64,000 bases of DNA from Nitrospiraceae bacterium (lineage in GTDB: Bacteria > Nitrospirota > Nitrospiria > Nitrospirales > Nitrospiraceae): NCBI GenBank assembly GCA_019637075.1, contig JAHBWI010000002.1, positions 248,001-312,000 of the forward strand, written 5' to 3'. A program made the position numbers and the translations under genes. Shown here in pieces: positions 3,880 to 16,858 of this stretch. Positions within the stretch are counted from its first letter, which is position 1, and each line of letters opens with the position of its first letter. The notes beneath the pieces were generated by a model. It ran no database searches, was not told the origin of the DNA, and saw nothing but the letters and a program-made list of their open reading frames with translations.

Positions 3880-4650
3880 CTATTTCATCTCTGCAGACAA
3901 CGACAGGATATAGTAAACCAAGTCCCAGGCTTCGTTGTCATTCCCGGCGACCTGATCGGCGTATGACGGCATCGGCGTCCCATCCAGGCCCGTCATCAAG
4001 CTTCGATAGAGGTCGCGCGGAGTGGCACCGCCTTTCAAGGAAGCGCGTTCGGTCAAATTGGCCGCTTTGATCCGCAACCCACGGCTGTCCTGGAGATGTC
4101 CCTCTGACTCTGGTCCGTCTCCGCGCCCTTCCGTCCCATGGCAGGTCTGACAGCCGTACTTGCCGTAGAGTGCACGCCCGCGCTGAATGCTTTCCTCGGA
4201 TGACGGATAGGGAGCAACGCCGATCGGCAACGGCACCGGTTTCTCCTCCTGGAACGCGGGATTGAACGATTTCACATAGGCAATGACCTGCCACCGCTGC
4301 TCCTCGGTAAGCAAGGCGAATGACGGCATATAGCCGGGAATACCTTGCGTCACAGTGCGGTAAAGGTCTTGGTCCGTCGGCAACTCCCCCGAAGCCGTGC
4401 TGCGAAACTTGAAATTCTCCTGAACGAAGTCCCTCGGACGCGGGGACGAGTACCGGCCCAAATAGAAAGCCACCGGCCCATCGCCTCGACCTCCTACGCC
4501 ATGGCACCAAATACAGCTGCGCTCGAAGATCTGTCGCCCCTTTTCACGGGTCAGCCGATTATCCTCCGGCTTGGCTGCGCGGACCGCAGCTTCTCCCGCG
4601 GCCATAACAATCAGACCGGCGGCAAGGCACGCAATGAGACGCAGACGCAT
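3880..4650 (-). CDS. exported dihaem cytochrome c
   Basis: 256 residues with a signal peptide (cleavage near residue 25) and two class-I cytochrome c modules. Haem-binding motifs are CIWCH (46-50) and CQTCH (167-171), each followed by a Gly-rich turn; likely axial methionines are in GYMPSF (near 108) and TPMPSY (near 240). It should carry electrons in the periplasm. It ends the minus-strand pair with the haem-bearing porin-like gene 11 bases upstream, so the two are probably co-transcribed and may exchange electrons. The terminal partner is not identifiable from sequence alone. Confidence 0.9.
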   Translation of the reverse strand: MRLRLIACLAAGLIVMAAGEAAVRAAKPEDNRLTREKGRQIFERSCIWCHGVGGRGDGPVAFYLGRYSSPRPRDFVQENFKFRSTASGELPTDQDLYRTVTQGIPGYMPSFALLTEEQRWQVIAYVKSFNPAFQEEKPVPLPIGVAPYPSSEESIQRGRALYGKYGCQTCHGTEGRGDGPESEGHLQDSRGLRIKAANLTERASLKGGATPRDLYRSLMTGLDGTPMPSYADQVAGNDNEAWDLVYYILSLSAEMK

Positions 4651-6050: not shown

Positions 6051-6350
6051 AACCGGCCTCCATTCATCACACGCTGGAAACAGCCCAGACCCTACGTACT
6101 ACCAGGTGAGTACCAGTCGTCGCGTCAAGAGTCAGAATAACAAAACCGACTCCAGTCGCAACCAAATTGCCCAAACCGGACAGAACGGCTTTCTGCGATC
6201 AACACCGCATGCTACCCGACAGTTCATATGGTCAAGGCGCAACCGAACAAAGTGGGAGCGTGGCCGACGTTTCCCCCATGCTTGACGCCAAGATGCCCCC
6301 TGTTACCCTTTAATACTGGGGAAATTCCCCAAGAATTCCAAGAGGCTGAC
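6051..6350. promoter_or_regulatory. divergent control region with imperfect dyad at 6096-6113
   Basis: This 300-base gap lies between the divergent haem-porin gene (start 6050) and the cupredoxin-like gene (start 6351). It holds an 18-bp imperfect dyad with arms GTACT / AGTAC at 6096-6113, overlapping a direct repeat of TACCAG, about 45 bases upstream of the porin start. It could be an operator for one or both genes. No convincing -35/-10 pair was found by eye. No gene is seen here. Confidence 0.3.
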
Positions 6351-7151
6351 GTGTTACGAATCGCTCTATTGTGGGTACTGTGCGGTCTGGCCATTGCATG
6401 GCCTGGTCTCGCGGGGGCCGGCGGAAACATCCATGGCACGGTCTCGTACCAGGGCGCCTCGGTCAGGGAGGAATTCCCCACGACCAAGCTGCCCAACGGC
6501 GATTACTGCGCAACCCTCGCTCAACAGAAACCCGAAGTCTTCTTGCATGAGGGAAAAACCAGACTACTTCAGACAATCGAGGTATCGCCGAACGGCGCGC
6601 TGAAGGATGCGATTGTCGCAGTGCAGGATGTGATCGATCCCGCATTCCTCGCCTCCTACCAAGGAACCACCGTACAGATCGAGGAATGCGAGTTCCATCC
6701 CTACACCAGTGTGGTCGTGGAAAAGCGAAACTTCCACGTGCTCAATCTCGACCCCACCGATCATCGCATTGCGCAGAATATGACGGTGAGCGCGGCTCAC
6801 AATCCCCACGGGATGGAAGTCCAAGGGTCCAACTCACGGACGCTGTTCAACATCGGCCTCGCGCAAAAAGGCGCACAGTTGAACAAGCCCGTGGTCTTGC
6901 GGAAACGACCTCTCGGCTCCTCACTCCTGCTGCTCTGCGACCAGCACCCCTACATGCAGGCCTGGTTCTTACCGATCACGAACCCCTACTATGCCGTCAC
7001 CGCGAATGCCGGGACGTTTGAGATCACGAACGTCCCCGCCGGCCATCACAAAGTCAAAGCCTGGCACCCTCGCGCGGGAATGATGGAGAAAGAGATTGTC
7101 GTACCGGAAAGCGGTGACGTCACCGTCCTCTTCGACATTCCTGCGAAGTAA
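6351..7151 (+). CDS. exported cupredoxin-like protein with C-terminal regulatory-like (Ig) domain
   Basis: About 266 residues. The frame is open from 6228, but GTG 6351 is chosen because it directly precedes a signal peptide (LLWVLCGLAIAWPGLAGA) and has an AGAGG site 6 bases upstream. The middle carries a blue-copper-like motif, C-x2-H-x2-M in CDQHPYMQ, and an upstream His in NFHVLN, as in cupredoxins. The C-terminal 70 residues (FEITNVPAGHHKVKAWHP) resemble the carboxypeptidase regulatory-like fold. It is probably a periplasmic copper or redox protein, and sits beside two cytochrome genes. Copper binding is inferred from the motif only. Confidence 0.75.
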   Translation: MLRIALLWVLCGLAIAWPGLAGAGGNIHGTVSYQGASVREEFPTTKLPNGDYCATLAQQKPEVFLHEGKTRLLQTIEVSPNGALKDAIVAVQDVIDPAFLASYQGTTVQIEECEFHPYTSVVVEKRNFHVLNLDPTDHRIAQNMTVSAAHNPHGMEVQGSNSRTLFNIGLAQKGAQLNKPVVLRKRPLGSSLLLLCDQHPYMQAWFLPITNPYYAVTANAGTFEITNVPAGHHKVKAWHPRAGMMEKEIVVPESGDVTVLFDIPAK

Positions 7152-7160
7152 CCATCCGCG

Positions 7161-7958
7161 TCAGACTTCCAACCTGCTCGACATACGCGACGTCGAACCA
7201 GTCGGCGAGCCCACTCGGTGCTCCTCGGTTGCCTTGGCTCGTCGTGCCCGTGCACGATGTGAGAGCCAAAGGGACACACCGGACAGGCCCATCAGCAACA
7301 ACGGCAAACCCGGCACATTGAGTAAGGTTTTCTCGAACCCAAAGAAATTGAGTTGGTGGAGCTGCATGACGAAGAAGTGCACCTTGCGCCATCGACCTTC
7401 GTCTTCGAGGATTTCCCCGGTGTAGCGGTCCAGAATGATCTCCGTCGCATTGGCGTCGTCGAAGCGTACTCGGACGGCGTCGTGAGTCCGTTTCTTCTTG
7501 CGCGGTTGATACCGTTCCAGGTCAACCCCGATGACCTTCGCCGGCGGTGCCACATACTGCTCCGCTAACGCTGGCGCCAATTCGGCGGAGATTGGCGACA
7601 GGCGTTCGCCGGTCGAGGCATCGATCAGGACCGTCACGGATGAACCCGCACCACCCAACCGGATCTCATACAACAAGCGGCCGAAATCAGACCGCAACAC
7701 CACCTGCTCGACAAACGTCCGACCCGCGGAGGCGGCCCGCGCGAGGTCGATGGCGTCCGGCAGCGACACCTTCGCAGCCGTCACCGGTGGACCGCCGACG
7801 GCACGCATCTTCTCCTTGTAGTGGTCGTCCCAATAGAGAAAACGCGCATCGGCCCACAGCAACCCCGTGATCAGCGAGAGAAAGAAAAACCCGCCCGCCC
7901 AGGCCGCGAGCCATCGATGCGCCCCCCTCGTCATCCGCTCATGTCCCGCGCGGCTCAT
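7161..7958 (-). CDS. PepSY-domain membrane protein
   Basis: 265 residues: an N-terminal membrane helix (WLAAWAGGFFFLSLITGLLW), two PepSY-like repeats in the periplasmic part (one includes IDASTGERL, the second LDRYTGEIL) and a C-terminal helix (NVPGLPLLLMGLSGVSLWL). This is the PepSY-associated TM family, often encoded beside TonB-dependent receptors for iron or other metals. The start ATG 7958 follows the stop of the DUF4198 gene by one base (TGACATG), so translation is coupled. The frame is open further upstream but that would overlap the upstream gene. It is the last gene of the TonB unit. Confidence 0.82.
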   Translation of the reverse strand: MSRAGHERMTRGAHRWLAAWAGGFFFLSLITGLLWADARFLYWDDHYKEKMRAVGGPPVTAAKVSLPDAIDLARAASAGRTFVEQVVLRSDFGRLLYEIRLGGAGSSVTVLIDASTGERLSPISAELAPALAEQYVAPPAKVIGVDLERYQPRKKKRTHDAVRVRFDDANATEIILDRYTGEILEDEGRWRKVHFFVMQLHQLNFFGFEKTLLNVPGLPLLLMGLSGVSLWLSHRARARRAKATEEHRVGSPTGSTSRMSSRLEV

Positions 7959-7959
7959 G

Positions 7960-8766
7960 TCAGGGCCTCTCGGCACGATCGGTCCGTACTTGTACGGCCA
8001 ATGTGCTGCGGTGTCGAACCACCTCGTAGGGCTTGCCTTGAAACTCTCCCCCGGATTTTTCGACGTGAAGCAGTTCGAGGACATATCGTCCCGGCCACAT
8101 CGGCGTGAACGTCGTGACCCCGTCGGAGCCAGTATGCAGTTCCTTGTCCCATCCGATAGGCGCATGCACGATTACCTGGACGGAGGGCAATGCCTGCCCC
8201 TTGAACATCGCGCGCACGACGATCTCCCCGCCCGGAGCGTGCGCCACCTGGCCGGTCGCCAGATTCACCCCCCGACTCAAAGGGATGATGTCCAGATCGA
8301 GCGGCACCGGCGCCTGCCTCTCCTGCTCGCTCACTCTGCCTTCCTCCAGGCAAATGAACGACGTGCGCGCGTAGTACATGGGTTTCACGACGCCGAGATC
8401 GTGCGACCGTAAGTCCTGCACCGGCGCATCCCGCTGTTCGGCCACCACCTCATGCCGACCGGGTGCACAAGCCGACATGTTGCCGGAGAAGCGGTTGATG
8501 TCCTTGCTCAAGGCAACCTCCGACGGTCCCTGCTTTGGGTGGGTGACCCGCAGTCGGATGCCGTCCATCGTATCCAGCCGCCCACCTCGCTCTTCCCGAA
8601 GAAACTCGCTGTACTCGCCGAAATAGACATGCATTGTTTGGCCGGAAGCGGGAGCGGCCGTCGCCTCCGCCTCGATCCAAGCAAAATGGGCCCGGGCGGG
8701 CCCAGCCGCAGCCAAACTCATCGAGAGCCCCAACATCCACATCCCGCCCTTTGTGATGGTTTTCAT
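7960..8766 (-). CDS. DUF4198-type exported protein of metal uptake
   Basis: 268 residues from ATG 8766, chosen because it begins a signal peptide ending in ARAHFAW; the frame is open to 8949. The mature protein starts with His, as is usual in this family, and has a C-terminal Ig-like part (GSDGVTTFTPMWPGRYVLEL). DUF4198 proteins are periplasmic or membrane-anchored accessory factors linked with nickel, cobalt or other metal transporters and TonB receptors. Here it lies between a TonB-dependent receptor (50 bases upstream) and a PepSY protein. The transported metal cannot be read from the sequence. Confidence 0.78.
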   Translation of the reverse strand: MKTITKGGMWMLGLSMSLAAAGPARAHFAWIEAEATAAPASGQTMHVYFGEYSEFLREERGGRLDTMDGIRLRVTHPKQGPSEVALSKDINRFSGNMSACAPGRHEVVAEQRDAPVQDLRSHDLGVVKPMYYARTSFICLEEGRVSEQERQAPVPLDLDIIPLSRGVNLATGQVAHAPGGEIVVRAMFKGQALPSVQVIVHAPIGWDKELHTGSDGVTTFTPMWPGRYVLELLHVEKSGGEFQGKPYEVVRHRSTLAVQVRTDRAERP

Positions 8767-8816
8767 AGCGACCCTGCTCCTTCTGTTGTGTTCGTTCATT
8801 CCTGCTGCCGTGCTGT

Positions 8817-10967
8817 TCAGAATCTCACGGAGACTCCGCCGTAGAAATTTCGGATTTCCCCCGGCTGGATTCCCACAAAGCTCGCGGTCTGTCGCTGGGC
8901 GATAAACGCTTCGTCGAACAAATTGCGAATGCCGGCAAAAATCGCCCATCGCGAATTCGGCGGCTCATAGTTCAGCCGCAGGTTGCACAGTGTGTAGGAG
9001 GGAATGACCCCCACGGTGCCAAGGACATTCTCCGGTGTGGTATTGGCAAGGTCCGTGAATTGCCTTGCGATATAGGTGGCATCCAATTCGACGGAAAGAC
9101 CGCTGTGATGGAAGTACCCGAGTGCGCCGTACACGGTCATCCGAGGCGCCAGCGGCAGATCCTTTCCGTCCGTGGCACCAGAAAGTGACTTCGGCCGCAA
9201 CAGCGTGATATTTCCCCGAGCCACAAATCCCTCGAGCGGTTCGACCAACTGTCCTCCATCCAGGATCACCGAACTCTCGATGCCCTCATGTACCGTCCGC
9301 CCACCGTTCACGAGCCTGCTGCCCTCCTGCACGATCTGGTTGGAAAAGTCGATGCGGAACAACGCGACTTCCGCCGTGACACCCCGCACCACTTGCCCGC
9401 GCAGGCCGATATCGGAACTCAATCCTCGCTCCGCCGCGAGATCCCGATCCGCACCGTTGGTGGGATCGATGGCGTTCGCAAACGTCGGTGGACGAAACGT
9501 CGTATGGATATGGCCGAATAGGGACAGATCCATCGGCAGGTCGTACTTCACGCCGGTTCCGTACACCAATCCCTGCGTGGTGGAGGAACTGCGGAAGTTC
9601 GGCACAGTCGCCGGGGGAATGGCATTCAAAGTTTCGCGGCTTTGGTTGACCTGTTCGAAGCGAAAGCCCGGCGTCAAGGTCAATCGATCGGTGATGCGCA
9701 GAACGTTTTCGACGTAGGCGGAATAGGCAATCGCTTCCAAATCCGCATTGTTCGTCGTCCGCGAGATCTTGGATCCGGCCGTCCCAATGCCGGTGATGTC
9801 GGTCAATCGCTCAGCGTGGTATCGCCCGCCGATGATCAGTTTGTGTTCCTGCCCAAACAGTCCGTAGGTGATCTGGTGTTGCGGCACCACGCCGAATACG
9901 TTGAACTTGCGCAGAAAGTTCGTGCTGGTCGGCAGGAGCGCTCCGGTCGTTCCGCTCTGGTCCTGAATGTACCAATTGCGTTCGAACACGTTCCCGTAGA
10001 CGATGAGCTTGCTCGTGTGATGGCTGTCGAACTCATGCATGGCGGTCACGTCGATGCTGCCCCGTTGCCCTTTGAACTCATCGAGTAGTTTGCCTGCCCT
10101 GGTTCGATCAGCCGCGAATTGCGCCGGCGTGATCCCGCCAGGCGTTTGCGAGGTTTCGTTGTACCAATCGACATTCGCTACGACGCGGGTGCGGAGGTCC
10201 GGATTCATCTCCAAGCGGAAGGTGAAGTCGTCCAATTGCGAAGCACCATGTTCGCGAAACCCATCGGACTGCCGCCGTACGTAGCCCATCTGCGCCCCGA
10301 GATTGCCGAAGCGCCCGCCGTAGGTCGTGCTGCTCTGAAACATATTGAAGCTGCCGAACGTGTTGGTCGTAGAAAAGCTCGGCGAAGACGGAATATGCTT
10401 CGTGACAAGATTAACCAATCCACCTTGCGTGTTCGGCGAGTAGAGCACGCTCGCCCCACCCTTGATGACCTCGATGTGATCGACCCGTTCGATCGGCACC
10501 ATGTAGTACATGGCCGGATCGCCGAACAGGGCCGGCTGAACGGGGATCTCGTCCACCAAAACCAGCACATTGCGACTGCGCGTGGGATTGAGGCCACGGA
10601 TACCGATGTTCGGCCGCAAGCCCTGTCCGTACTCCTCCATGATGGTCACCCCAGGAATGCGCCGCAGCATTTCATCGGCATTCTTAGGCCGCGCGCGCTG
10701 CAATTCCTCCCGGGTCACGACATTGACGACGCCGGGGATTTCTTTCACCGCCTCCTGATCAGGCAGGTCGCGCTGCTGCGCCCCTTGCACCACTACCTCG
10801 GGCAACTTGACCGCATTGGAGGGCGGCGCCTCGCGGCCCTCCGCTGTGGCCTCGACCGGCGTTGCGGGTGTCGCTTCCGCGTCTTGTGCCAAGACCGTCG
10901 CTCCTTGCCCCACTATCGCCACGAGACAACATATCGCGCCCACCACCCGCACAAACCTCAACAACAT
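8817..10967 (-). CDS. TonB-dependent outer-membrane receptor, FecA-like
   Basis: 716 residues from ATG 10967 (GGAGC site 5 bases upstream; the frame opens at 10994 inside the leader). It has a signal peptide ending VLAQ, then a TonB-box-like region near LPEVVVQG, a plug domain (IPGVVNVVTREEL, LVDEIPVQPALFG, YSPNTQGGLVNLVTK) and a 22-strand-type barrel that ends in GGVSVRF with terminal Phe. It imports a scarce substrate, probably a chelated metal, across the outer membrane using the TonB protein encoded upstream. The plug resembles FecA and other Fe(III)-citrate or siderophore receptors, but the DUF4198 neighbour leaves copper, nickel or cobalt possible. It is preceded by a terminator-containing leader. 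Confidence 0.92.
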   Translation of the reverse strand: MLLRFVRVVGAICCLVAIVGQGATVLAQDAEATPATPVEATAEGREAPPSNAVKLPEVVVQGAQQRDLPDQEAVKEIPGVVNVVTREELQRARPKNADEMLRRIPGVTIMEEYGQGLRPNIGIRGLNPTRSRNVLVLVDEIPVQPALFGDPAMYYMVPIERVDHIEVIKGGASVLYSPNTQGGLVNLVTKHIPSSPSFSTTNTFGSFNMFQSSTTYGGRFGNLGAQMGYVRRQSDGFREHGASQLDDFTFRLEMNPDLRTRVVANVDWYNETSQTPGGITPAQFAADRTRAGKLLDEFKGQRGSIDVTAMHEFDSHHTSKLIVYGNVFERNWYIQDQSGTTGALLPTSTNFLRKFNVFGVVPQHQITYGLFGQEHKLIIGGRYHAERLTDITGIGTAGSKISRTTNNADLEAIAYSAYVENVLRITDRLTLTPGFRFEQVNQSRETLNAIPPATVPNFRSSSTTQGLVYGTGVKYDLPMDLSLFGHIHTTFRPPTFANAIDPTNGADRDLAAERGLSSDIGLRGQVVRGVTAEVALFRIDFSNQIVQEGSRLVNGGRTVHEGIESSVILDGGQLVEPLEGFVARGNITLLRPKSLSGATDGKDLPLAPRMTVYGALGYFHHSGLSVELDATYIARQFTDLANTTPENVLGTVGVIPSYTLCNLRLNYEPPNSRWAIFAGIRNLFDEAFIAQRQTASFVGIQPGEIRNFYGGVSVRF

Positions 10968-10994
10968 GATCGCTCCTTTATGTTGCGGACACAC

Positions 10995-11066
10995 AAAAGC
11001 CCAAGGCTGCTCACGCAGGCTTGGGCTCTGGACTGACAGTCCGCTGGCCTTGTTCGACTGATCTCG
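10995..11066 (-). promoter_or_regulatory. leader element 1 of the TonB unit: conserved loop hairpin plus intrinsic terminator
   Basis: This minus-strand leader lies between the Com-like gene and the receptor. In transcript order it has a small hairpin (AGUC / GACU stem, loop with AAGGCCAGCGG, plus-strand 11041-11051), then a terminator hairpin at 10998-11027 (AGCCCAAG, CUGC, GUGA loop, GCAG, CUUGGGCU) and a U-run. The receptor ATG is 28 bases beyond the U-run. The same arrangement and near-identical conserved bases recur in front of tonB at 12965-13030. The repeated pattern suggests a cis-acting attenuator or riboswitch; the ligand is unknown. A simple terminator for the upstream genes is the alternative. 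Confidence 0.55.
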
Positions 11067-11087
11067 CCTACTGCGATCCGGTTCGCT

Positions 11088-11330
11088 TCAGAAGGGACAA
11101 CTTCCCCTGATCGCAGCAAAAGCAATCGTCACAAACCGCCGGCATCGTTTGCACTTGATCACGATCCCCCGCTCATCCCACCGGGCAATCAATTGCCCGC
11201 ACTGACAGCGTACATCGTCGTGCCGCAAGGAACGTGGCGCAGCCTGCTTCGTCGCCCGAGTCATTGGCGTAGCCCTTTCCGCCGACCGGGCGGATTGGTC
11301 GGTCGCGCTTGTCCGCAGCCCCCGGTTCAT
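11088..11330 (-). CDS. small Com-like zinc-ribbon protein
   Basis: 80 residues. The C-terminal half is VRCQCGQLI...IKCKRC, the four-Cys pattern of the Mu Com family, a small RNA-binding zinc finger that in phage Mu controls translation of mom. No phage genes are near. The start ATG overlaps the upstream stop by one base (TAATG), so it is translationally coupled; a second in-frame ATG at 11264 is possible because the first 22 residues look poorly structured. Its place between an exported protein and the receptor leader is striking: a zinc-ribbon RNA binder encoded next to a regulatory leader. Function here is unknown. Confidence 0.65.
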   Translation of the reverse strand: MNRGLRTSATDQSARSAERATPMTRATKQAAPRSLRHDDVRCQCGQLIARWDERGIVIKCKRCRRFVTIAFAAIRGSCPF

Positions 11331-11800
11331 TACTTGAACACCAACTTCTTCAGATCTCCGACCGGCACCTCCACATCGCCGAAGTCGGACTGGCCCTTGA
11401 ATCGGCCGGGAATCGCCATCGTGAACTCGCCGGTCTTACCGTCGAGAAGCGTAATAGCCACCGCTGTGGCAGCGCCTTCGGTCGAAGGCTTGACCTCGAC
11501 GGTTCTAATCGCATCGAACTTGATTTTGATTGTGGCCGTCCCGCGCTTGACCGGCACTTCCTTCAACTCGTGCGGCACAAACGACGTCTCGGTAACCTTC
11601 TCTTCCCAGTAGAACAACAGATTTCTGACTTCGGTTTCGATTCCCTTTGCATCGGTGGCCACGGCATGAAAGGATCTTTCCGATTTCGATTCGGCCCACA
11701 CCGCTCCGGCAGAAAGCAGCAGACCCAATACCCCGATCCCTGATCGCACCATCAACCGGCAGGCCTTAACACCGAATGTCCTGTCCCGTTCTCCCATCAT
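11330..11800 (-). CDS. exported protein of unknown function in the tonB operon
   Basis: About 156 residues from ATG 11800 (AAAGGAG site upstream; a second ATG follows immediately at 11797, and the frame is open to 11989). The signal peptide ends VWAES. The mature part is a mostly beta domain (TATIKIKFDAIRTVEV, TAVAITLLDGKTGEFTM) that ends in VPVGDLKKLVFK. I do not recognise the family. It is 38 bases downstream of tonB and overlaps the Com-like gene, so it is part of the same operon and is expected to act in the periplasm. Base and codon use match its neighbours. Confidence 0.7.
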   Translation of the reverse strand: MMGERDRTFGVKACRLMVRSGIGVLGLLLSAGAVWAESKSERSFHAVATDAKGIETEVRNLLFYWEEKVTETSFVPHELKEVPVKRGTATIKIKFDAIRTVEVKPSTEGAATAVAITLLDGKTGEFTMAIPGRFKGQSDFGDVEVPVGDLKKLVFK

Positions 11801-11838
11801 GTGTCTCCTTTGATCGAACACGTGAACGACTTTCCACT

Positions 11839-12915
11839 CTACCCCGCTAAACGGTAGGCAATTGGCACGAGGATCGTCACCTGATCCCGTCCGAGCGGAT
11901 GCTTGAGCGGCAGCGGCGATGCTCGCCGCAGTACGGTCAAGGCATCCTGATCCAGCACGCCATGTCCGGAACTTTGCGCAATCTGACAATCCAAGATCTT
12001 CCCATCGTGTCGAATCACCGCTTCGACGATGACCTTACCTTCCCAACGGCGAGACCGAGCAATCGAGGGATACCGCTTGAGATCCTCAATCCGTTTCCAA
12101 AGCGACTCCGCAAGCCATCCAAAGTCCGCCTTCGCCGGAGCCACCGTTTCAACCCGTCGTTGGGGCACAGGCAAAACCGTCACGGTTTCGGTCGGCGGTT
12201 CCGCCGTCGGCACCGGTTGAGTGATCGCTTCTACCGGCTCGAGCACGGGCCGACCCACAATCTGCTGCGCCACCTCATGCGGTAACGCGACGCCCTCCGC
12301 TGATACTGCTACTGGCATTGCCTTCGCTTCTACCTCATGGACCTGCTGAACCTCCTGTTGGACAATCGCCTGCGTCACACCGGTCGCCTCGCGCGCTTCC
12401 CGCACCATCACCCGCTCTATGGGTTCGCCCATCGGGCGATCCTGAGTGGCGAGTTGCTGAATTGGGTGGCTTGTCTCCACGGGCTCAGCGTGAATGGGCG
12501 GCGCAGTCTCAACGGCAACCTCCCGCTCAACGGGAGTCGTCACTGACATCGGCCGCTGTTCGGTCTGCGCAGCCTGTATCGGCTGCACCATCGCCGTCCG
12601 CTCCACTACCCGCCGCTCAACGGGTTTCGGAAGGGCGACTGGCACTGGCTTGGACCGCATCGCTTGTTGTGGCGGGACCGTTGGTGGAGGCTGCACCACT
12701 GGGATCGAGTCGCTCGGTGAACGGGGCGGAGGAGGCGTGGGCGCCAACACTACATCCCAACGAAAGGGGGCAGGTTCACGCTTTGGCTGGAGATCGACGA
12801 CACCTTGCAGCGCTAAGGCAAGGGCACCGCTATGCAGCAGGACGGAAATCAGCCAGCCGCTTCGGCGAAAATCCTCCGGCCTTGACCACTCCACTCCCAT
12901 TCCAACTGGTGTCAT
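11839..12915 (-). CDS. tonB: TonB energy-transducing protein
   Basis: 358 residues. The start ATG 12915 has GGAG 5 bases upstream; earlier in-frame codons lie inside the leader terminator. An N-terminal membrane helix holds the S-x3-H motif of TonB (SVLLH). A long Pro/Val/Glu-rich periplasmic linker follows (APTPPPP, then many PVE/VE repeats). The C-terminal domain has YPSIARSRRWEGKV and SSGHGVLDQDAL, typical of TonB. It carries proton-motive energy from an ExbB-ExbD complex (not in this window) to the receptor encoded downstream. It heads the unit and is preceded by a promoter at 13090-13117 and a terminator-containing leader. Confidence 0.92.
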   Translation of the reverse strand: MTPVGMGVEWSRPEDFRRSGWLISVLLHSGALALALQGVVDLQPKREPAPFRWDVVLAPTPPPPRSPSDSIPVVQPPPTVPPQQAMRSKPVPVALPKPVERRVVERTAMVQPIQAAQTEQRPMSVTTPVEREVAVETAPPIHAEPVETSHPIQQLATQDRPMGEPIERVMVREAREATGVTQAIVQQEVQQVHEVEAKAMPVAVSAEGVALPHEVAQQIVGRPVLEPVEAITQPVPTAEPPTETVTVLPVPQRRVETVAPAKADFGWLAESLWKRIEDLKRYPSIARSRRWEGKVIVEAVIRHDGKILDCQIAQSSGHGVLDQDALTVLRRASPLPLKHPLGRDQVTILVPIAYRLAG

Positions 12916-12964
12916 ACCGGCTCCGTTTCTCAAATCCCGCCTTCGCAATCGAGCGAGAGACAAC

Positions 12965-13083
12965 AAAAAAGCCCAAAGCTGCCGAGAAGGCAACCTTGGG
13001 CTCTGATCTCGTGGGACCGTTGGCCTTATGAGTCTGCGCGCTGGGCGAAACGGTGGCTTTGGAGCGCGCTCTTCTTGATTTCA
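12965..13083 (-). promoter_or_regulatory. leader element 2, upstream of tonB: conserved loop hairpin plus intrinsic terminator
   Basis: Transcript from the promoter at 13090-13117 would start near 13083. It contains AAGGCCAACGG (plus-strand 13017-13027) in the loop of a short hairpin (GAC / GUC), then a very strong terminator: 14-bp stem 12970-12983 with 12989-13002, 5-base loop and six U (12965-12970). A 6-bp alternative pairing, ACCGUU with AACGGU, would pull the conserved loop out of its hairpin. Since there is no gene between promoter and terminator, the terminator can only act on tonB expression. It shares with leader 1 the order, the conserved 11-mer (10 of 11 bases) and CAGAGCCCAAG. 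Confidence 0.6.
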
Positions 13084-13089
13084 ATTCTC

Positions 13090-13117
13090 AATATCATATA
13101 ATGGAAAGCTCTGTCAA
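13090..13117 (-). promoter_or_regulatory. sigma-70-type promoter of tonB
   Basis: On the minus strand TTGACA (13117-13112) and GATATT (13095-13090) are separated by 16 bases: a perfect -35 and a 4/6 -10. The predicted start is near 13083, giving a leader of about 170 bases before the tonB ATG. Confidence 0.6.
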
Positions 13118-15775: not shown

Positions 15776-16858
15776 TCAAACCACAACCCGCCTGGGCCGG
15801 CCACGACCTGCTGAAGAGACTTGCTCCAAGGCGAGCAATCGTCGCTTCCGTTCGATACCCCAGCGGTAGCCGGCCAAACGGCCGTCGCCTCGCACCACCC
15901 GGTGGCAAGGAACCAGAATCGCCAAGGGATTGGCGGCGCAGGCCCTCGCCACCGCACGGGCGCCTCCTGGGGAACCAATCGAATCAGCAATCTCTTGGTA
16001 CGACCTGGTCTGCCCACGCGGAATCCCCTGCAGTGCGCGCCAGACCAATCGTTGAAACGCCGTCGCCTTCACACTCACCGGCGGACGTATGATCGTCTCT
16101 CCCGTCAGACTGTCACACACTGCCTGCAGGAATCCTCGCAGCCCAACACGATCACGACACACCACCGCATAGGGATAGTCCTCGCGCAACGACGCCAGCA
16201 GCGAATGGTCGTCATCGCCGAGACTGACGGCGACGAGCCCACGCTCCGTCGCCGCCACCAGCACTCGCCCCAATTCGGTCGAGGCCGTCGAATACCGCAG
16301 TGTCACGCCGCGGCCACCAGCACGGAACCGCCCCGGCGTCATTCCCGTTTCGGCGCAGAACCGCTCATACACGCGGCTCCCGGAACCAAACCCCACGTCG
16401 TAAGTGGCATAGGTCACCGTGTCGCCTGCCTGCAGGAGCCGTTTCAACCGTTCCGTACGCTGGACTGACTGATAGGCCTTCGGAGACAAACCCACCCGCT
16501 CGCGGAAGATTCGTTGGAGATGCCAGGGACTCACCCCTGCCTCCCGGGCCAGGCAAGCCAGCGTGACCGGCTCTGTCAGATGCTCATCCAAGTAGCGCCG
16601 TGCTTGCGTAACGAGTTCGTCGCTGCGGCTCCCGCCCGGTGCTGCTGGCTGGCAACGCAGGCACGCACGGTAGCCGGACGATTCAGCTTCGTTCGCCGTC
16701 GGGAAGAAGGTCACATATGCCCGGGCAGGACGCCGGGATGGGCAGGTGGGACGGCAATAGATTCCCGTGGAGCCGACCGCGTACACGAATCGGCCGTCAA
16801 AGCGACGATCGCGATGCAATACGGCTTGCCACGCGCGGTGTGGGCTGATGGTTTGCAT
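15776..16858 (-). CDS. ada: bifunctional Ada: AraC-type regulator and methylated-DNA methyltransferase
   Basis: 360 residues in the Ada order. The N-terminal zinc domain has the methyl-phosphotriester acceptor Cys in GIYCRPTCPSRRP and the CLRCQP pair; then an AraC helix-turn-helix region (LACLAREAGVSPWHLQRIF); then the C-terminal O6-methylguanine methyltransferase with active-site PCHRVV and the RAVARA recognition helix. It repairs alkylated DNA by suicide methyl transfer and, when methylated on the N-terminal Cys, activates the adaptive response. The first AraC helix region is full length, so regulation is likely retained. No alkB or alkA neighbour is seen. Confidence 0.93.
   Translation of the reverse strand: MQTISPHRAWQAVLHRDRRFDGRFVYAVGSTGIYCRPTCPSRRPARAYVTFFPTANEAESSGYRACLRCQPAAPGGSRSDELVTQARRYLDEHLTEPVTLACLAREAGVSPWHLQRIFRERVGLSPKAYQSVQRTERLKRLLQAGDTVTYATYDVGFGSGSRVYERFCAETGMTPGRFRAGGRGVTLRYSTASTELGRVLVAATERGLVAVSLGDDDHSLLASLREDYPYAVVCRDRVGLRGFLQAVCDSLTGETIIRPPVSVKATAFQRLVWRALQGIPRGQTRSYQEIADSIGSPGGARAVARACAANPLAILVPCHRVVRGDGRLAGYRWGIERKRRLLALEQVSSAGRGRPRRVVV

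Follow-up and report, generated by a model that had tools for sequence, protein, structure and literature searches.

The window analyzed here, a stretch of 64,000 nucleotides from a Nitrospiraceae bacterium, carries on its minus strand a unit of genes that runs from tonB through a hypothetical secreted protein, a zinc ribbon of the Com family and a TonB-dependent receptor to DUF4198 and PepSY proteins (Table 1). A homolog of the secreted protein occupies the equivalent place behind tonB at another locus (L077). Two related leader RNA elements lie in the unit, one ahead of tonB and the other ahead of the receptor gene, and both are located on the minus strand where the original prediction had put them. 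The receptor copy starts 34 nt past the com stop codon. The tonB copy stands directly between a promoter-like site (TTGACA box at 13117-13112 and an imperfect -10 sequence, GATATT) and the tonB ATG at 12915; that no gene intervenes, as had been claimed, is borne out by the sequence and the terminator scan. As in an intrinsic-terminator attenuator, the predicted terminator with its U-run sits between the promoter-like site and the start codon. Two further genes of the window lie outside the unit. A secreted protein with a weak carboxypeptidase-regulatory-like domain is encoded divergently beside it (6228-7151, plus strand), and a secreted protein with the same kind of weak domain is found directly after an element elsewhere (L289:789-1664). 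An ORF at 15776-16858 (minus strand) resembles an Ada-type DNA repair methyltransferase/AraC regulator and is unrelated to the attenuators.

Table 1. Leader elements, their parts and the surrounding genes, in window positions.
Feature	Position	Strand	Basis
Promoter-like site of the tonB unit	13090..13117	-	TTGACA, 16 nt, GATATT; 10/12 consensus matches; predicted from sequence alone
Element 1, tonB leader	12963..13030	-	Full covariance-model match, 59.8 bits (cmsearch with R1 and own-genome search)
Core of element 1	12998..13025	-	GGCCAACGG-UCCCACGAGAUC-AGAGCCC (sequence)
Intrinsic terminator, element 1	12968..13004	-	Terminator scan (16 pairs) and fold; 5′ arm AGAGCCC common to core
tonB	11839..12915	-	TonB_C, E 1.3e-17
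Hypothetical secreted protein, 156 aa	11330..11800	-	ORF list; no Pfam match
Com-family zinc ribbon, proposed RNA-binding regulator of both elements	11088..11330	-	Relatives in family genomes, hhalign, profile search
Element 2, receptor leader	10991..11054	-	Full covariance-model match, 72.1 bits (cmsearch)
Core of element 2	11023..11049	-	GGCCAGCGGACUGUCAGUCCAGAGCCC, P2 GGACU/AGUCC (sequence, fold)
Intrinsic terminator, element 2	10995..11029	-	AGAGCCCAAG...CUUGGGCUUUU; fold -28.6 kcal/mol, z -3.2
TonB-dependent receptor, proposed target of element 2	8817..10967	-	Plug and beta-barrel domains
DUF4198 protein, downstream, co-directional	7960..8949	-	Pfam, E 2e-15
PepSY/PepSY_TM membrane protein, downstream, co-directional	7161..8165	-	Pfam, E 2.5e-13

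Anatomy of the two leaders

Both leaders share one layout, consisting of AAGGCCARCGG, a short variable stem, CAGAGCCCAAG and a terminator with a U-run. In each, CAGAGCCCA comes after GGCCARCGG and the small variable hairpin, and its AGAGCCC doubles as the 5′ arm of the intrinsic terminator. The combined pattern AAGGCCANCGG-N2-20-CAGAGCC has exactly two matches in the window and none in 100 dinucleotide shuffles of it. Covariance-model searching of the 4.06-Mb genome of the organism itself found only three strong elements: the two in the window and one at C7:25264-25326 (55.1 bits; 4265-4327, minus strand, in the locus G000:C7:21000-31000, L290). The claimed terminators with U-runs are present in both leaders, the tonB copy being found by the scan and the receptor copy, a 10-bp stem followed by UUUU, by folding.

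The original prediction had placed GGCCARCGG in a hairpin loop, which is wrong. It supplies the 5′ half of a hairpin whose GGC is able to pair with the GCC of AGAGCCC, with a variable inner stem enclosed between them. The inner stem of element 1 (P2) is GGUC/GAUC (13018-13015 with 13008-13005), with compensatory changes in relatives, and its candidate outer stem (P1) is GGC/GCC (13025-13023 with 13001-12999). Folding predicts this small hairpin, composed of P1, the internal loop CARM/RGA and P2, once the 3′ arm of the terminator is removed; in the full-length sequence, the terminator is predicted to outcompete it. A 6-bp alternative pairing, ACCGUU/AACGGU, had also been put forward as a means of opening the hairpin. 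The pairing does exist in the tonB copy, but it occurs only there and not family-wide: upstream complementarity of at least 6 matches was found in 5.8% of 103 elements and in 7.2% of shuffles. It was rejected as a switch pairing because it is not above chance across these elements, and its occurrence in the tonB copy is probably chance.

An RNA family with a covarying inner stem

A relaxed pattern run over 296 genomes of the phylum returned recurrent copies with differing inner stems. A covariance model, R1, was built from 15 copies, including both window copies. With a threshold of E ≤ 0.1, it has matches in 125 of the 147 genomes that belong to the window's family, and as many as 8 in the best genomes. 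With the second model, R2, 107 of the 296 sampled phylum genomes have a match at E ≤ 0.01 and, under the stricter limit of E ≤ 1e-4, 97 still do; these matches are strongest in the window's family and in its order and class. The most divergent elements (G217 and G241), when read by eye, retain the layout GGC-NAGA-GGC...GCC-CAAA-GCCC. Matches of a pattern scan across the whole contig collection are mostly chance, and the only clear element among those listed is from a Nitrospira sp. (L200, 50.6 bits); a Desulfosarcina match (L210, 28 bits with R2), which lacks a Com-like gene, was set aside as probably chance. Two genomes, G139 and G293, each have several weak matches of 27-34 bits (L349, L350, L353, L354, L358 and L361), which could represent either elements that have diverged or just a widespread type of terminator. 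A tandem pair of elements about 100 nt apart overlaps the start of a diverged Com-like frame in L303:5323-5488.

Alignment of 77 distinct strong elements from fetched loci to the covariance model gave the consensus RGGCCARMG - P2 - C-RGAGCCCA - terminator. In this alignment, 98% of cells are paired and 12 of 18 pairs are altered on both sides; doubly changed cells number 207, whereas shuffles give 56 and sliding the structure along the alignment never gives more than 56. The informative helix is P2, as it is located ahead of the terminator; compensatory changes occur at all four of its pairs (45 cells), with variants such as GGAC/GUCC, GGUC/GACC, GCAC/GUGC and GAGC/GCUC. Eight of the 14 terminator pairs are altered on both sides. 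In the upper stem of the terminator, variation is free and compensated, whereas the GAGCCC of the 5′ arm hardly varies. Because P1 (GGC/GCC) shows no variation at all, covariation gives no information on it. All 77 elements have G in column 34, opposite U in 48 of them and C in the other 29, which indicates that the 5′ arm is constrained beyond pairing. AGAGCCC is thus conserved for a second reason, as would be expected if it is also part of the small hairpin or of its binding site.

The leaders belong to an RNA family in which P2 and the terminator covary and AGAGCCC is used twice in the sequence. The original prediction was open to refutation by a failure to find further copies before TonB-related genes of Nitrospirota or covariation in them; a covariance-model search found further copies before such genes, with compensatory changes, and the attenuator reading survived this test. 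Rfam (4227 families; gathering cut-off or E ≤ 1) has no match in the window and, at E ≤ 1, none in five element-bearing relatives. The original prediction had likewise seen no match to the core motifs of cobalamin, TPP, NiCo/czcD or fluoride switches, and the known riboswitch classes were rejected for want of an Rfam match. This attenuator RNA family is real, conserved and previously unlisted. A literature search of partial coverage found no published account of such a family, and we know of none.

Some copies of the core have no terminator. Three loci (L325, L337 and L342) have a second core copy about 110-150 nt after the first, without a U-run and directly before the Shine-Dalgarno sequence and start codon of a gene for a beta-barrel-like protein. 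The 3′ half of the core is predicted by folding to pair with the Shine-Dalgarno region in L325 and L337, although the L325 fold is weak (z -0.8), and this predicted pairing resembles that of Mu mom. These second copies could represent a translational form of the switch. In four close relatives (L074:2362, L032:1822, and L111 and L114, both minus strand at offset 1696), a terminator-less core, GGCCAGAGGAC(A/G)UGAGUCCAGAGCCC, with AUG or GUG in its loop, lies between com and an AraC-type gene. The existence of terminator-less copies indicates that the core is a self-standing unit and the terminator one of several outputs.

The linked Com-family zinc ribbon

The gene between the two window elements was first noticed because relatives of the element directly flank such genes. 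It has 80 codons and encodes a basic zinc ribbon with the motif RCxCGQL..AR...IKCxRC, relatives of which are present in 127 of the 147 family genomes. Pfam and NCBIfam by themselves give it no name: matches to PF10122 (Zn_ribbon_Com) are weak, with a score of 20.9 bits, below the curated cut-off of 22.9, and 10 of 26 members match at E ≤ 0.1 (best E 1.7e-4). Comparison by hhalign with four phage Com proteins gave a probability of 97.0% (E 1.1e-10), and the profile of the Nitrospirota proteins retrieves phage Mu Com with an E-value of 4.8e-4. The aligned segments read DVRCGGCNRLLARA..LQIKCPRC in Nitrospirota and DVRCRCGQLVARW..IEIKCKRC in phage Com. At the level of profile comparison, the zinc ribbon is shown to be homologous to phage Com. 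A search for solved structures close to the Com-like proteins found nothing convincing.

The element is linked to a Com-family gene across families. A Com-like gene is found less than 10 kb away, and always on the element's strand, for 108 of the 150 listed elements. When Com was searched for a second time with a profile, 16 elements were added, so that 124 have a gene of this kind within 10 kb, without one exception as to strand, and 26 have none listed within that distance; each roughly 4-Mb genome has one to four Com-like genes. The distances fall into classes. Elements that precede com are either 29-72 nt from it, in the leader of com itself, or about 1.65 kb from it, as the tonB leader. 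Those that follow com stand at 31-101 nt, where a receptor or other gene comes next, or at about 3.4 kb. The distance from com to the element downstream of it is 27 nt (G157) or 28 nt (G163 and G265) in other families; for genomes from other classes of the phylum, it is 88 nt (G006) or, with a diverged Com, approximately 15-20 nt (G217). Both features are present in 93 of the 296 genomes (element at E ≤ 1e-4), the element alone in 4, Com alone in 17 and neither in 182, while the corresponding numbers outside the window's family (E ≤ 1e-5) are 20, 1, 20 and 176; the genomes in both counts are related, and significance is overstated. Com occurs without a detected element in about 20 of the 296 genomes. 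Taken alone, the linkage is compatible as well with com being a mere member of the regulon.

In phage Mu, the mom mRNA has a stem that masks the mom start and, next to it, a small hairpin to which Com binds, activating translation (PMC6483171). SELEX with Com defined two GAG/CC half-motifs around a variable stem of 3-4 bp (PMC6483171); the motif, CC(N)2-3GAG / GAG(N)2CC, occurs twice around the short variable stem and was obtained with a distant Com (PMC6483171). The Nitrospirota loci are similar in having a homologous zinc ribbon, with com directly upstream of the target, and a small hairpin with CC/GAG-like half-motifs adjoining an inhibitory stem that begins with CCCA. CC-ARMG and CC-RGAG-CC flank a variable stem of 3-5 bp in the Nitrospirota element, with the CCCA...UGGG terminator immediately next, and the stem following the Com hairpin in Mu is CCCAC...GUGGG. 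The match to the SELEX motif is a resemblance and not an identity, however, with a spacing of CC-N1-GAG in the Nitrospirota element as opposed to CC-N2-3-GAG. The first zinc knuckle also differs, Mu Com having CxxC...CxxC and the Nitrospirota proteins CxC...CxxC. Furthermore, an intrinsic terminator usually serves as the inhibitory stem in Nitrospirota, chromosomal uptake genes are targeted, and a genome may hold several elements, some far from com, with no Mom. In contrast to the translational control of mom, only some of the Nitrospirota copies look translational.

Proposed control of an iron-type regulon

The first genes after representative elements encode, according to Pfam, a TonB-dependent receptor with an STN domain, an ECF sigma factor, FecR, ExbB, TonB, AraC-type regulators, HD_5 proteins and a di-heme peroxidase-like protein. 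A Bfd-like [2Fe-2S] protein is also found downstream of an element, with a best score of 26.6 bits against a cut-off of 26. The sigma factor is of the FecI type, and the receptors are FecA-type STN receptors. Judged by these domain assignments, the downstream genes form a predicted iron-type regulon; TonB, ExbB, FecI/FecR, the receptors and Bfd support the original proposal that metal-uptake genes are controlled. The third element of the organism's own genome belongs to a cluster with tonB, a Com-like gene and porin-like, FMN-binding and HD_5 genes, near two genes for ferritin-like proteins and an ApbE-like gene. The genome has two copies of fur, one of which is 5-15 kb from the third element on the same contig. 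The window's unit, with its receptor, DUF4198 and PepSY genes and without FecI or Bfd, is compatible with iron but is no proof of it, and this composition leaves some room for another metal, such as copper. For another bacterium, a paper that mentions TonB as well reports an operon that responds to copper (PMC9426467). We regard a metal other than iron as a doubtful, though not negligible, candidate, considering that other loci have the element before genes for a FecI-type sigma factor, FecR, FecA-type STN receptors, ExbB, TonB and Bfd and that the third copy lies close to ferritin-like genes and fur.

We propose that each element is a protein-responsive transcription attenuator, in which termination is averted when a Com-family protein binds to the hairpin, and we consider this account reasonably probable. 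The small hairpin GGC-CARM-(P2)-RGA-GCC would be transcribed first. Without the protein, the AGAGCCCA segment would be drawn into the longer terminator hairpin, and transcription would stop before tonB or the receptor gene. The Com-family zinc ribbon, encoded between both elements, would bind the nascent small hairpin and retain AGAGCCC, thereby blocking the terminator and allowing antitermination. Such a system would be self-amplifying because com sits behind element 1 and before element 2 and elsewhere has an element in its own leader. The input is presumably a shortage of iron or another metal, as the composition of the regulon suggests. We infer Com binding, the sense of the control (antitermination as opposed to enforced termination) and the metal signal from these comparisons.

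As the main rival to Com-dependent antitermination, the element could be a small riboswitch through which the iron regulon senses a metal or cofactor; the ligand would choose between hairpin and terminator, with com merely regulated. The conserved unpaired CARM/RGA, the switch-like overlap with the terminator, the iron-type genes of the regulon and the location of several elements far from every com gene would all fit a riboswitch. We nevertheless consider it unlikely. The core of about 27 nt is small and consists mostly of two short half-sites around a free stem, and a riboswitch leaves unexplained both why com is the one constant neighbor in different families and classes, the other genes being variable, and why the architecture is like that of Com/mom. 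Of the earlier alternatives, attenuator or riboswitch, the attenuator is supported by recurrence and compensatory changes; the constant Com linkage and the architectural match to Com/mom favor a protein-responsive attenuator over a riboswitch.

Alternatively, the Com-family protein could bind the element and act as a repressor, either enforcing termination or blocking translation at the terminator-less copies. The linkage and homology apply equally to such a protein, and an element in the leader of com itself would then be ordinary negative autoregulation. Since Mu Com is an activator (PMC6483171), the terminators are strong unaided in folding and the proposed binding hairpin has AGAGCCC in common with the terminator, with which binding should compete, we judge repression to be improbable. 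Ordinary intercistronic terminators with a meaningless conserved sequence, or a mobile repeat, are already disfavored and very improbable: the terminators are indeed strong by themselves in fold and scan, but GGCCARMG is conserved upstream of them, P2 covaries, the tonB copy sits between promoter and start codon, the copies have unrelated flanks, some have no terminator, and the genome contains just three of them.

The proposed Com-dependent antitermination can be compared with other systems that control such genes or use such leaders. Attenuators with a ribonucleic antiterminator (RAT) of the BglG/LicT type also combine a short hairpin with a terminator so that the 3′ side of the former extends into the 5′ arm of the latter and, as proposed here, undergo protein-stabilized antitermination. 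However, their RNA sequence and protein family are unrelated, and the Nitrospirota system has no PTS-regulated domains; RAT/BglG antitermination was rejected, as the linked protein is a Com-type zinc ribbon and Rfam contains no family that matches the RNA. Metal riboswitches (NiCo/czcD, Mn yybP-ykoY and fluoride) and cobalamin riboswitches likewise place a terminator-bearing leader RNA before transport genes, whereas the Nitrospirota element is without an Rfam match, has a much smaller core and is linked to a gene for an RNA-binding protein. Fur-controlled FecI/FecR/FecA systems have the same kinds of target genes; unlike them, the Nitrospirota control would operate at the RNA level, and Fur may act on the regulon in addition.

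Across much of the phylum, a chromosomal relative of Mu Com may regulate the host iron-uptake regulon, mainly by antitermination on a new family of hairpins of about 27 nt and in some lineages by unmasking the Shine-Dalgarno sequence, a generalization whose chances we judge to be evenly balanced. If true, iron uptake would be controlled at the RNA level in a group that includes nitrite-oxidizing and comammox bacteria, and the mediator would belong to a protein family so far known from Mu-like phages. Com would gain a large set of natural RNA targets, useful for the unsolved question of Com-RNA recognition, and a single RNA-binding switch would be seen to shift between translational and transcriptional control. 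The element would also provide a new RNA family for annotation and allow regulon prediction in many genomes without cultured representatives.
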